Shown: piece after piece, positions 13,364-18,166 of the stretch
Position numbering within the stretch: position 1 is the stretch's first letter
Layout: each line of letters begins with the position of its first letter
Assembly (NCBI GenBank): GCA_021850485.1
Contig: JAJZLY010000007.1
Span: forward strand, 90,973-154,972
Length of the DNA: 64,000 bases
Direction: 5' to 3'
DNA from: Bacillota bacterium
GTDB taxonomy: Bacteria > Bacillota > Sulfobacillia > JAJZYS01 > JAJZLH01
Position numbers and translations under genes: made by a program
Notes under the pieces: model-generated
The model's input: the letters and a program-made list of their open reading frames with translations, nothing else
What the model was told of the DNA's origin: nothing
The model's database searches: none

Positions 13364-13395
13364 GGTGCGCTTAGCGGTGCGCCTAGCGGTGCAGC
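13364..13395. repeat. Imperfect 12-bp tandem repeat spanning a stop codon
   Basis: GGTGCGCTTAGC, GGTGCGCCTAGC and a partial third copy GGTGCAGC stand in tandem on the plus strand. On the minus strand the copies provide the TAG stop of the SIS gene and, 12 nt later, an in-frame TAA, so the 3' end has been locally duplicated. Confidence 0.5.
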
Positions 13396-14411
13396 TGACG
13401 TGCTTTCAGGTACTTCGGATCCTCCCGCCGCAACAGATCTGGATTGGTGCCCCTCTGGATAGCTGCGCCCAGGGTGATCAGGTGCATGGCGTAAAGCGCC
13501 AGCCAGGGAAAGAGCACTTCTGCCCCGCTGTCCGAGCCCAGGCCGACAGCTGCCGGATCCACCACCTTGCCCTGAAAGCCTACTGTCCGCCTGACCAGTT
13601 CGAATTCGGCTGCCCGCCGCTGGTCGCTCTTGGCGCTGAGCAGCGCGACCACCGCCGTGTCCGGGTTGGTGAGCGGAATGTAGCCATGGAAGAAGGTCTC
13701 AAAGGGGATGGCCAGGGCTGGTAGGTAGGCGGCTTCGGCCAGCTTCAGCGACCCCTCCTCGGCCACCGGCCAGACCCGGTCGGAGGCCACCAGCAAGGCA
13801 TGCGTAACCTGCGTCCAGTTGATCCACTCGGCGATCTCCTGGCGTCTGGCGTACAGTGCCTCCAGACCGCTGGCCAGGCGAGCGCGATCGGGCTGCAACA
13901 CGCTGCCTGATGTACCGCGCCGGCGGTCGCTGCTGGCCGCCACTTCCAGCGCCAAAAGACTAAGTACCATCACACTGACCGTATGACACAGCGACTGATC
14001 CTCGCCAAAGCCGTTGTCCACCACCACGCTCGCCAAGGACGCCGCCTCAGATTCCGGGTGACCGGTGATCAGCACCACCTGGTCCCCTTGCCGCTGGCGT
14101 CGGCGCATCAGCTCCAGGACCGTCTTGGTCTGACCGCTCTGGGTCAAGACCACCAACAAATCCTCATTGGACAGCGGCACCGCCTCCGTCAGCAGATCGC
14201 CCGCTTCCTGGCAGCCGACCGGGAATCCTTGAGCCTGAAGGTGCGTGGCGGCCAGATGGGCGGCGAAATACGAACTGCCGCAACCGGCCAACACCAGACG
14301 ACGAAACGGGCGCAACCCCTGATCGCGCAACTGCGTGCGCACCCGGTCTGGAGCGGCTAGCGACGCCACCAGCTTGGGTGTGAGACCGAGCTCGACTTCC
14401 ATCCGACTCAT
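13383..14411 (-). CDS. SIS-domain sugar isomerase-like protein
   Basis: A 342-residue cytosolic protein with two SIS domains and no glutaminase domain. The first has LVLAGCGSSYFAAHLA (about 39-54) and LLVVLTQSGQTKTVLEL (about 85-101); the second has VAEEGSLKLAEAAYLPA and a HGYIPL element, resembling the isomerase half of GlmS, AgaS or FrlB. It probably interconverts or deaminates an aldose/ketose phosphate or amino sugar phosphate. ATG 14411 has an AGGAGGG site. It is the last gene of a packed minus-strand run with a thioesterase and two nitrilase-fold proteins, a context not typical for GlmS-like enzymes. Confidence 0.88.
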   Translation of the reverse strand: MSRMEVELGLTPKLVASLAAPDRVRTQLRDQGLRPFRRLVLAGCGSSYFAAHLAATHLQAQGFPVGCQEAGDLLTEAVPLSNEDLLVVLTQSGQTKTVLELMRRRQRQGDQVVLITGHPESEAASLASVVVDNGFGEDQSLCHTVSVMVLSLLALEVAASSDRRRGTSGSVLQPDRARLASGLEALYARRQEIAEWINWTQVTHALLVASDRVWPVAEEGSLKLAEAAYLPALAIPFETFFHGYIPLTNPDTAVVALLSAKSDQRRAAEFELVRRTVGFQGKVVDPAAVGLGSDSGAEVLFPWLALYAMHLITLGAAIQRGTNPDLLRREDPKYLKARQLHR

Positions 14412-14416
14412 CTGCT

Positions 14417-14815
14417 TCAGCCCTCCTGCCGTCTCGCCAGAAACGTGCCCTCGGCCTCGGCCAGGATCTCCTCACCGTGACATAGGCGAGATTTAGCCCT
14501 ACCCAGCCGGCGGTGCAGCTGGATGCGCTCTGCTGTCAGCGAGAGCTCCACGCCGAGCGGCACCGGTTTCAGGAAGCGAACCGTCATCTGGGCGGTCATG
14601 CCTCGCCAGCCCTCCTCGGCCAGCGCGTAAAACATGGCTTCGTCCAGCAAGGCGCTGACCACGCCGCCGTGCGCCACCTGCCGCCAGCCCTGCACCAACT
14701 CCGGCAGCACCAGGTGAGCACTGCAGCGGCCGCCGTCCACCGTAAAATGCACCTGCAGACCGATCGGGTTGTCCGCACCACAGATCAGACAGCCCCGGTC
14801 ATCGACGAGTTGCAC
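14417..14815 (-). CDS. PaaI-type hotdog thioesterase
   Basis: A 132-residue hotdog-fold protein. HGGVVSALLDEAM (49-61) is the conserved active-site helix of PaaI/YbgC-like acyl-CoA thioesterases, and a CLICG motif (Cys9, Cys12) followed by NPIGLQ marks the N-terminal form with a CxxC. It is likely to hydrolyse an acyl or aryl thioester. GTG 14815 is preceded by GAGGAGGGG, so the longer frame to 14923 is rejected. The start overlaps the 3' end of the upstream nitrilase gene by 17 nt, and the SIS gene begins 5 nt after its stop, indicating one transcript. Confidence 0.9.
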   Translation of the reverse strand: MQLVDDRGCLICGADNPIGLQVHFTVDGGRCSAHLVLPELVQGWRQVAHGGVVSALLDEAMFYALAEEGWRGMTAQMTVRFLKPVPLGVELSLTAERIQLHRRLGRAKSRLCHGEEILAEAEGTFLARRQEG

Positions 14816-15869
14816 CGCTCGCCCCTCCTCGCCAGAATCCGCGGTAAATCGCCGGAAAGTAGGCCCGAATGAAGGCGGCGTTGGCCCGGATCGGCTCCTC
14901 CTTGCGAAAGGCGCGCAGCGCATCCATGTCCAGATCGGCCAGCACGATCTCCTCGTCGTCGGACAGCGCCTGAGCCAAGACCCCGTCTCCAGTCGGCGTC
15001 AGATCCAACGGCGCGTAGATGCCACTGCGGCCGGTGAAGGTCAGATCCAAGGCGCTGCCCACCATGCAGGACTGGATACCGTAGACGCCGCTCTCCTGCA
15101 CCCTCGGCCACAACCCGCGCAGGGACTTGAACGGGTTGCCCGAGGGGTCTGGATCGGCCACGGGCAGGCAGACCACCTCCGCGCCCTCGGCGCTCAGGAT
15201 GCGAAACGTTTCGAAGTAGGTGGCATCCATACAGATCGGCTGGGCCACCCGCCCGATCGGCGTGTCCAAGACGACCAGTTCGTCGCCTGCGGCAAAGCCC
15301 CACTCGGCTTCCAGCGGCAGCAGGTGGCACTTGAGTTGGGTGCCCATCAGTTGGCCGCGCGGTCCAAACAAATAGGCGATGTTGTACACGCGCCCGTCAC
15401 GGCTCATCACCGGCATCGATCCGGCCTGAATCATCATGCCGTAGTCGCGGGCCAGGCGGCTGAATACCGACAAGTAGATCCGCTCCGCCGACTTGCCGAC
15501 CAGCTCCACGATGCTGGAGACACTGAGATCCGGGCCAATGCGGGCCAGTGCCTCCTCCATCGACCCCGTGGCAGTGATCCGCTCGAAGCGGGGCAAGATG
15601 CCAAACAGCATCATGCCCACATCCTCCGGGAAGACGACCAGTTCCGCGCCGCCGGCAGCAGCCTGGTTCACCAGTTGCGATACCGTACGGGCGAAGGCGC
15701 CGGCCGAGGTCAGAAAGCGAAAGCGCATCTGGACGGCAGCCACCCGCACCACGCCCACCCGCGGCGTGGCGACGGCGCCCCGCTTCGGCCGACCCAGCGC
15801 CCGGTGCGCCTTGCCCGGACGCGAAGCCAGCCACAGGCGAAAGCGCACCATCCACAGGTCAAAGCTCAT
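14799..15869 (-). CDS. Carbon-nitrogen hydrolase (nitrilase superfamily), catalytically intact
   Basis: A 356-residue member of the nitrilase/amidase superfamily with the full Glu-Lys-Cys triad: Glu82 in VVFPEDVG, Lys180 in TQLKCHLL and Cys213 in PICMDATYF. It acts on a C-N bond (nitrile, amide or carbamoyl group) of unknown substrate. A basic N-terminal stretch of about 35 residues precedes the domain. The start codon overlaps the stop of the upstream gene (ATGA), which encodes a second, triad-less nitrilase homologue, so the two are translationally coupled and may form a mixed assembly. A thioesterase overlaps its end. Confidence 0.9.
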   Translation of the reverse strand: MSFDLWMVRFRLWLASRPGKAHRALGRPKRGAVATPRVGVVRVAAVQMRFRFLTSAGAFARTVSQLVNQAAAGGAELVVFPEDVGMMLFGILPRFERITATGSMEEALARIGPDLSVSSIVELVGKSAERIYLSVFSRLARDYGMMIQAGSMPVMSRDGRVYNIAYLFGPRGQLMGTQLKCHLLPLEAEWGFAAGDELVVLDTPIGRVAQPICMDATYFETFRILSAEGAEVVCLPVADPDPSGNPFKSLRGLWPRVQESGVYGIQSCMVGSALDLTFTGRSGIYAPLDLTPTGDGVLAQALSDDEEIVLADLDMDALRAFRKEEPIRANAAFIRAYFPAIYRGFWRGGASGATRR

Positions 15870-16747
15870 GGCCGAGCCTCCGGTCGTTCCTGCCAGTGCC
15901 GGCGGTACAGATCCGGATTCAGGTGCCGAAGCAGCGGATAGCGTTCCCGCAGTGCATACAAATCGGCCGGCTCGAGCTTGGCTGAGCGCACCTGCTGGGA
16001 TAGGACATAGCCCGCTTCGCCAAAAAATCCGGTCTCACCGGGGGTCAGCTCACACGGGGCGAATACCGCCAGCTTCCCATCGACGCCCAGATCGAAAAAG
16101 GTGCCGCTAAGCCCGGTCTCCAGACCGAACGTCTGGTTCTGCTGCACCTCTTGCCACAGCCCGGCCATCGCCCGCGCCGAGCCGTAGGGGGCGATCGGCG
16201 CCAATGGCGCCACCAGCAAGTCGGCGCCTTGCAAGGTGAGCACCCTGGACACCTCGGGCACCCAGGGGTCAGCCCCGAGCAACAGTCCGACCCGCATCGG
16301 GCCCACCTGCCACACGGCCACCTCGGCCGCAGCGATCAGCTCCGCCTCCCACAGGTAGGCATGGGTCTGCTCCTGCCAGCCCAGCAGGCGTCCTTCCGGG
16401 TCGAACAGGGCAGCCCGATGGGTGTAGCCGATCGGTGCCGGCAGCCATACCGATCCCGGCACCAGGTAGATGTGGCGTTCTCTGGCCAGTTCCTCGCCGA
16501 TGGCCAGATAGCTGGCCTCCAGGTCCGCTCCGGCTTGGCGCAGGCGCTCGGCCAGGCCGACCGGCACCATCGACAACTCAGCGGGCAGAAGGCCCATCGC
16601 CATCAGACCAGGAAACACTACCAGTGACTCTGTGGGCACGCCGGCGCCAGCGATGTGGCTCAGCATGACAGACTTCAGTTGTGCCGGGTCGGAGAAATGG
16701 CGAAACGGCAGACGAAAGCCAACCACCGTCAACTCGGCTGCGCTCAC
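15866..16747 (-). CDS. Nitrilase-fold protein lacking the catalytic triad (pseudoenzyme)
   Basis: A 293-residue homologue of the neighbouring nitrilase, recognisable from VVFPGLMAMGLLP, GYTHRAALFDPEGRLLGWQEQTH and the VGLLLGADPWVPEVSRVLTLQGAD stretch. Aligned to the intact copy, the catalytic Glu is Gly47, the Lys is Gln127 and the Cys is Gly158, so all three active-site residues are gone while the fold-defining motifs remain. The frame is open over full length, which argues for a selected non-catalytic role (partner, scaffold or sensor) rather than decay. GTG 16747 has a GAGGAGGTCGAC site. It is the first gene of the four-gene operon. Confidence 0.85.
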   Translation of the reverse strand: MSAAELTVVGFRLPFRHFSDPAQLKSVMLSHIAGAGVPTESLVVFPGLMAMGLLPAELSMVPVGLAERLRQAGADLEASYLAIGEELARERHIYLVPGSVWLPAPIGYTHRAALFDPEGRLLGWQEQTHAYLWEAELIAAAEVAVWQVGPMRVGLLLGADPWVPEVSRVLTLQGADLLVAPLAPIAPYGSARAMAGLWQEVQQNQTFGLETGLSGTFFDLGVDGKLAVFAPCELTPGETGFFGEAGYVLSQQVRSAKLEPADLYALRERYPLLRHLNPDLYRRHWQERPEARP

Positions 16748-16810
16748 CGTCGACCTCCTCGTCCTGCAGGCCGCATCTCACACCGCCGTCGAATTCCAGA
16801 TGCCAAGGGA

Positions 16811-18166
16811 GTGGTCCATCTGGCAGTCTCCGCCGCTGGCGCCCAATCGCCCGCCGGCGATCGCTTTTTGTCCTTGTTCTCCCCGGCTCTGCGGCTGGTC
16901 GGGGAAGACTATGTCGGGCTGGGCCGGCTGAGTCAACTGATGGTCGCCGGCTCCTCCATCGCCGGCGCCGTCAGCGGCCAGCGCCATGACTACTGGGTGG
17001 TGCTCACCGAGGAAAGCGCCCATTGCTCACATTGTAGCCGACCGTGTCGCCATGGGGCGGCGCTTGCCGCGGCCTGGCAGCGCACACCCCAAGACTTCGT
17101 CGATATCGTCGCCCTGACCGACCGGCTGCTGCAAACCCAAGACAGCGCGCCGCTGGTCGCCGGATTGCTTGAGGATCGGGTCCTGGACACCCTTCTAGCC
17201 TTCACCGACCTGCCCTTCATTCCTCCTTCAGACCCAGTCTTGGACCTGGCACGCCTGCCCCAACTGCAGCCGTCGGAGCAGGCGGGTGCCCTGCGCCGTC
17301 TGCTCCAGCGCTTCCCGGCTGATCCGCTCATGGTCACCCAAGCGCTCCAGCAGTTGGCACGCCTGCTCCTCACCGATCTGGCCGACATCGCCCTGCACAC
17401 TGAGGGTCCTAACCTGCTGCCTCTAGCCACGGCGCTGGCCAGCCGGCTGGACGAAGACACCATGGCCACCTTCTTGGACCGGATCTTGGTCCACTTCCAC
17501 GATCTGCGCTCTCGGGGCCAAGATGCCGGCCCTTTGCTGTTGCGCGCCGCCCAAATTCTGGCCCTACGCCCGAACGACACCCTGGCGTTGGCCTATCTGG
17601 CCGGCCTTCCCCAGGCGCCGCTGGCTCTTTTTGAAACTGCGGCTGAGCTGGCCCTCCTGGCTGGCTCCCCCCGTCAGGCCCTGTCCCTGCTTGATCAAGC
17701 GTTGCTCACCGCCGAAGGCGGCTCCCGGCTGCAACTCAGCGTGCGGGCCGCCGAAATCGCCGCAGCCAGTGGCAGTGCCCGCGAAGCGACACTGTGGCTC
17801 GGTGCGCTCACGGAAGGCAGTCAGCTGGCGCTCAGCCAACTCACGCGCCGCTTCCCGCATGTGCTGCGGGCGGCGCATGGCGAGGTGGTGGCCGCACTGC
17901 TGGCCCGAGATCCAGACCTTGCCTGTCGGACGGCCCTGGCTGCTAGCGATCTGGCTCTGGCCTTTTCACTCGCCACCGATCACGACCTATCGCTGGCCAC
18001 CCTAAGGCGCCTGGTGCCGCCGGCGCTTAGACGGCAAATCGATCCCACCGTCTGGTCGGTGCGTGGACTCAGCGCCGCTGAGCAGCGCCAGTTCCACCGC
18101 CTGCGCCAGCGGCCGTTGAAGCCGGCAGCGGCCAAGGGAGGTGCCAACAGCCGTGGCCAGCGCTGA
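16811..18166 (+). CDS. SWIM-type zinc-finger-like protein with helical repeat region
   Basis: A protein of about 451 residues. The N-terminal part begins FLSLFSPALRLVGEDYVGLGRL, as SWIM proteins commonly do, and continues to a CxxCxxxCxH motif (Cys72, Cys75, Cys79, His81) followed by GAALAAA, resembling the SWIM zinc finger used in DNA or protein binding. The remainder is Leu/Ala-rich and helical with TPR-like pairs (for example PLLLRAAQILALRPNDTLALAYLAGL). The start is uncertain: GTG 16811 abuts an AAGGGA, while CTG 16820 would have that site at good spacing. It overlaps the phosphatase gene by 14 nt. Function unknown. Confidence 0.7.
   Translation: MVHLAVSAAGAQSPAGDRFLSLFSPALRLVGEDYVGLGRLSQLMVAGSSIAGAVSGQRHDYWVVLTEESAHCSHCSRPCRHGAALAAAWQRTPQDFVDIVALTDRLLQTQDSAPLVAGLLEDRVLDTLLAFTDLPFIPPSDPVLDLARLPQLQPSEQAGALRRLLQRFPADPLMVTQALQQLARLLLTDLADIALHTEGPNLLPLATALASRLDEDTMATFLDRILVHFHDLRSRGQDAGPLLLRAAQILALRPNDTLALAYLAGLPQAPLALFETAAELALLAGSPRQALSLLDQALLTAEGGSRLQLSVRAAEIAAASGSAREATLWLGALTEGSQLALSQLTRRFPHVLRAAHGEVVAALLARDPDLACRTALAASDLALAFSLATDHDLSLATLRRLVPPALRRQIDPTVWSVRGLSAAEQRQFHRLRQRPLKPAAAKGGANSRGQR

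Follow-up and report, generated by a model that had tools for sequence, protein, structure and literature searches.

A triad-less nitrilase-fold protein kept beside an intact paralogue in Bacillota as the likely non-catalytic subunit of a heteromeric amidase

In the window, i.e. the whole stretch of 64,000 nucleotides analysed, two adjacent genes on the minus strand encode proteins of the nitrilase fold, namely NitA (15866..16747, 293 aa, GTG start; Pfam CN_hydrolase 7.6e-07), in which the catalytic triad is lacking, and NitB (14799..15869, 356 aa, ATG start; Pfam CN_hydrolase 1.4e-22), in which it is intact. Enzymes of the nitrilase superfamily are usually regarded as homo-oligomers with the triad present in every subunit. 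In our judgment, NitA is quite likely a dedicated non-catalytic, prozyme-like subunit of a heteromeric amidase, NitAB, acting on an amide-bearing sugar compound; for the unfused cases we infer the heteromer, and likewise the activation by NitA and the class of substrate. Such long coexistence of a dead copy with a live one, in dozens of bacterial families, suggests that the dead copy is needed as a non-catalytic partner and is not simply a broken gene.

Regarding the layout of the locus, transcription runs on one strand from the triad-less NitA to the intact NitB, then to a hotdog (4HBT) thioesterase (14417..14813, minus strand; Pfam 2.7e-08) and finally to a SIS-domain sugar isomerase/deaminase-like protein (13383..14411, minus strand; Pfam 4.5e-20), which is the last gene of the run. 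The stop codon of NitA (TGA, 15868-15866) and the start codon of NitB (ATG, 15869-15867) overlap as ATGA (15866..15869, minus strand). The first-pass annotation had described a packed operon with these two downstream genes and an ATGA-coupled second gene keeping all three triad residues, which is what the Pfam matches, the sequence and the alignment indicate; it had also, in one sentence, put the triad-less protein second, in disagreement with its own coordinates, by which NitA comes first. The hotdog gene, whose true start lies near 14813 within the listed ORF (14417-14923), is kept within the genus as well as in related families of this order, as seen by genome comparison. For the SIS protein, the closest NCBIfam models are GlmS-type and GlmD, all far under their cut-off. 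Divergent from NitA, an ORF of 503 codons on the plus strand (16655-18166) has no Pfam match and is kept at the same site within the genus, and weakly so in related families of its order; the listed start, which falls inside NitA, probably lies upstream of the true one.

By its fold, NitA is related to nitrilases, with a score of 29.2 bits against the curated Pfam CN_hydrolase cut-off of 23.2 and 27% identity to NitB across 302 aligned columns. The AlphaFold2 model, computed with 48 NitA sequences, displays a full nitrilase fold (pLDDT 93.9, pTM 0.92), and its best PDB hits by Foldseek are without exception CN-hydrolases (E 9.5e-20). In the alignment, Gly47 (codon at 16607..16609, minus strand), Gln127 (16367..16369, minus strand) and Gly158 (16274..16276, minus strand) stand opposite Glu82, Lys180 and Cys213 of NitB, respectively, in agreement with the Gly, Gln and Gly reported at first pass for a protein keeping the fold motifs. 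Among the 95 NitA homologues gathered, the Lys position is never Lys and is filled by Gln (91/95), otherwise by Glu, Ser or Ala; the Glu position is mostly Ala, Gly, Pro, Ser or Gln, with Glu in a single sequence; and the Cys position is Gly in 75 and Cys in 7, the remainder being Ser, Ala, Asp, Gln or His. None of the 95 has an intact triad or more than one of the three residues, and since the triad is broken at the same three positions in 95/95 homologous pairs, its absence from NitA is not a matter of chance. No alignment places the triad elsewhere in NitA; displacement by misalignment was ruled out with a NitA-only alignment, the gap that seemed to lie at the Glu position having arisen only because NitA was aligned to the NitB profile. 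The one NitA in which Glu is present at its catalytic position (E-Q-G; L107 65-1006) could be a reversion or an ancestral remnant. The residues conserved in NitA in its own right include Q125, Q127, D160, P164, R168, W198, Q202, N204 and E210, and conservation is maximal at residues 161-170 and 191-210, in and around the model helices 164-172 and 190-204. Judging by descent and fold, NitA belongs to the nitrilase superfamily (PF00795) as a member and not as an enzyme, its presumed inactivity following from the missing residues, and in annotation it should not carry the name nitrilase.

Its partner NitB scores 80.7 bits against the same Pfam cut-off of 23.2 and combines the superfamily fold match with the triad, i.e. 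Glu82 (codon at 15624..15626), Lys180 (15330..15332) and the nucleophile Cys213 (15231..15233), all on the minus strand and placed by alignment. The Glu-Lys-Cys triad is intact in 102/102 NitB from the same set as the 95 NitA, a count that is partly built in for the Cys, because the contig scan used patterns spanning that residue; the 20 loci added by profile searches are free of this selection effect. NitB also has a basic N-terminal arm (15795..15869, minus strand) with conserved L12, R17-P18 and L25, which is absent from NitA. NitB falls short of the curated equivalog cut-offs of three NCBIfam models, namely nitrilase NF040852 (69.8 bits, cut-off 500), AguB TIGR03381 (50.3 bits, cut-off 410) and deaminated glutathione amidase NF043013 (46 bits, cut-off 500).

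The pair is an ancient and widespread arrangement in Bacillota, conserved across dozens of families. In the window's own genome and its relatives, 38 of 41 genomes match NitA, most of them with two neighbouring matches whose order is unchanged. Scanning contigs with the NitB profile yielded 80 named loci, nearly all in Bacillota MAGs (including some labelled Dethiobacter, Thermaerobacter and Symbiobacterium), and wherever the contig sufficed NitA lay directly upstream of NitB on the same strand. Across the phylum, NitB exceeds 280 bits in 57 of 299 genomes, and reading the match lists by hand placed NitA immediately before NitB, on its strand, in all 54 genomes with enough contig, the locus being cut by contig ends in the other three. 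Of 90 unfused pairs, 41 have genes that overlap by 1 or 4 nt and 69 have genes no more than 30 nt apart. Two matches came from MAGs labelled otherwise, one Actinomycetes (L108) and one Acetobacteraceae, possibly misbinned (L080).

A physical partnership of the two proteins is supported by fusions, as NitA and NitB occur in one frame in at least three lineages (L087 in G040; L102 in G107; L078/L079/L138/L142/L143). The AlphaFold2 model of the L087 fusion has two well-folded halves with a disordered linker between them and a pTM of 0.89, a value that, for two equal domains and such a linker, would imply a confident relative placement. Together, the fusions and the predicted structure support a physical partnership and would be consistent with a complex. 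In nitrilases, the two helices to which NitA 164-172 and 190-204 would be equivalent form the main dimer surface. Across 91 pairs (effective number 47), inter-protein covariation puts 2 of the top 20 couplings in these two helices for 0.4 expected. An alignment that combined fusions with separately encoded NitA and NitB was left out, having placed both proteins over the same half. The NitA helix 190-205 (SARAMAGLWQEVQQNQ; 16133..16180, minus strand) is among the most conserved stretches of the protein and, by its position, would correspond to the second helix of the canonical dimer surface. The first-pass proposal that the triad-less copy is under selection for a non-catalytic role as a partner of the active one is backed by the conservation of the pair, low dN/dS, the fusions and the fusion model.

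Mechanistically, NitB carries the Glu-Lys-Cys site, and NitA, having kept the fold, would most likely stand in for the second subunit of the customary nitrilase dimer, thereby offering NitB a surface to pair with and perhaps a regulatory pocket. By this means NitA may stabilise, complete or regulate the active NitB, as prozyme does for the trypanosome AdoMetDC. The probable target of NitAB is an amide-bearing sugar compound, on which, in many lineages, a GH125-like glycosidase and an MFS_2 transporter would act as well. A broader scheme, which we put forward tentatively and at somewhat under an even chance, is that of an ancient two-subunit amidase of Bacillota in which the dead subunit is obligatory, working with the GH125-like glycosidase and MFS_2 in an undescribed amide-glycoconjugate pathway, with some doubly dead complexes now serving as sensor or scaffold.

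The evolutionary record bears on one of the rival explanations, in which NitA is nothing but a pseudogene copy decaying after a recent duplication. In a phylogeny built from 51 pairs plus 7 intact single nitrilases (quick search, SH-aLRT as the only support, outgroup not a single clade), all NitA sequences fall into a single clade with support 100 and all NitB sequences into another with support 99, with the Cys-keeping NitA branching first inside the NitA clade, so that Glu and Lys appear to have been lost first. Most simply, a single old duplication would have been followed by the loss of Glu and Lys, then by the spread of the pair and afterwards, in most lineages, by the loss of Cys. Intermediates of this kind, in which Glu and Lys are gone and Cys is kept, allow the origin of a pseudoenzyme subunit to be followed and its contribution to be tested. 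The dN/dS of NitA (NG86), a measure suggested at first pass, is well below 1, with 0.11-0.20 among three members of the genus and 0.05-0.27 in a related family, the values of NitB being similar. The missing triad and the faster evolution of NitA relative to NitB (median path ratio 1.3) are what decay would predict, but the age of the monophyletic clade, the frames open across the sampled genomes, the dN/dS and the confident fold model together rule it out, and we give this explanation practically no credence. NitA and NitB trees are also correlated (mirror-tree r = 0.71, beyond all permutations), a likeness that shared species descent alone would give.

More serious is the possibility that NitA is an independent binding protein, having kept the ligand pocket as a substrate sensor or carrier and being merely co-transcribed with NitB, which we consider unlikely, though the least so of the three rivals. 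It would account for the conservation of former active-site positions and their neighbours in NitA (Q127, H129, D160) and for the survival of pairs whose B copy has itself degenerated. Two such pairs are found in the window's order, one with the NitB nucleophile changed from Cys to Ser (G003; L018 4734-5876) and the other with Cys to Thr together with Glu to Asp (G004; L019 5757-6953), and family f55 (G064, G146, G234) has a second, diverged NitA-NitB pair in which Cys or Glu is missing from the B copy (L191 3742-5684, L192 3904-5863, L193 3916-5848), which in G064 comes besides a normal pair. Since these pairs persist, catalysis is not the sole thing selected, binding can outlive it, and a binding or scaffolding role may remain where it has gone. 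The repeated one-frame fusions, the strict adjacency and the confident packing in the fusion model nevertheless speak against independence of the two proteins. As for NitA being a new enzyme, in which Gln127, the conserved Asp160 and the Cys232 of many members would form a different active site, its QxQTH, GxDxWxPE and PCE motifs are indeed strongly conserved and Cys232 occurs in 37 of 48 aligned NitA rows; however, Cys232 is not universal and no invariant nucleophile exists, the former Cys position being G/C/S/A/D/Q/H and the former Glu position mostly A/G/P/S/Q, which makes this explanation improbable.

Complexes of two paralogous subunits have a precedent in the nitrilase superfamily, as the grass (Poaceae) nitrilases NIT4A/NIT4B are heteromeric with an activity that depends on the two-paralogue complex (Jenrich et al., 2007, cited in PMC3537687), and it is in this respect that NitAB, as proposed here, would resemble them. 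NIT4A and NIT4B, which belong to the true nitrilase branch, are plant isoforms and do not form an operon pair, and the review PMC3537687 describes no triad-less subunit, whereas NitA is without all three triad residues and forms an ancient separate clade. From an unrelated enzyme family and organism, the trypanosome AdoMetDC offers a dead paralogue, the prozyme, which according to PMC6221367 forms an active complex with its partner enzyme. Both prozyme and, to judge by its missing residues, NitA are catalytically dead paralogues kept beside an active enzyme, NitA being a homologue of NitB that has lost the triad; the active heterodimer is established for AdoMetDC and proposed for NitAB. The solved structures closest in fold to NitA and the NitA-NitB fusion include the N-carbamoylputrescine amidohydrolase MtCPA (5h8i-5h8l) and the amidases of Nesterenkonia, Pyrococcus and Helicobacter (3hkx, 6ypa, 6mg6), all of them single-gene enzymes with a catalytic Cys and about 15-24% identity. 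In the open-licence papers searched, no earlier report of a triad-less nitrilase subunit and none of an operon combining GH125 and nitrilase were found.

Besides the pair itself, the surrounding genes point to a sugar-linked pathway that is so far uncharacterised. Of the 62 loci whose flanks extend 3 kb or more in each direction, 37 encode a GH125-like glycosidase next to the pair and 21 an MFS_2 sugar transporter, the order GH125-like, NitA, NitB, MFS_2 being found on one strand in ten loci (L090, L122, L162, L164, L169, L170, L172-L175); the literature searched holds no description of the function of this cassette. NitAB is present in 41 of the 45 genomes with the GH125-like glycosidase against 57/299 overall (Fisher p = 1.3e-32, genome relatedness being uncorrected for). 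The C-terminal part of this glycosidase matches the GH125 exo-alpha-1,6-mannosidases (2nvp/3qt9/5m7i), from which the protein differs by about 200 extra N-terminal residues, and it keeps the Asp of a PSDD motif and a Glu aligned with the catalytic pair of GH125. The window's own genome has no GH125 match, and thioesterase and SIS genes follow the pair there instead. The pathway linked to NitAB accordingly looks sugar-related, as judged from GH125-like and MFS_2, rather than defined by those two genes of the window, and our guess from the gene context is that the substrate is a sugar-linked amide; mannosylglyceramide, considered as a candidate, found no support in the papers searched. In one locus (L040 2825-6550), NitB and the GH125-like glycosidase share a single open frame of 1242 codons, possibly through an indel artefact in view of the adjoining G7 homopolymer. 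Another neighbour of NitAB, presumably of the YbaK type (prolyl-tRNA editing-like), recurs in several lineages (L100, L101, L115, L118, L120, L165, L168).
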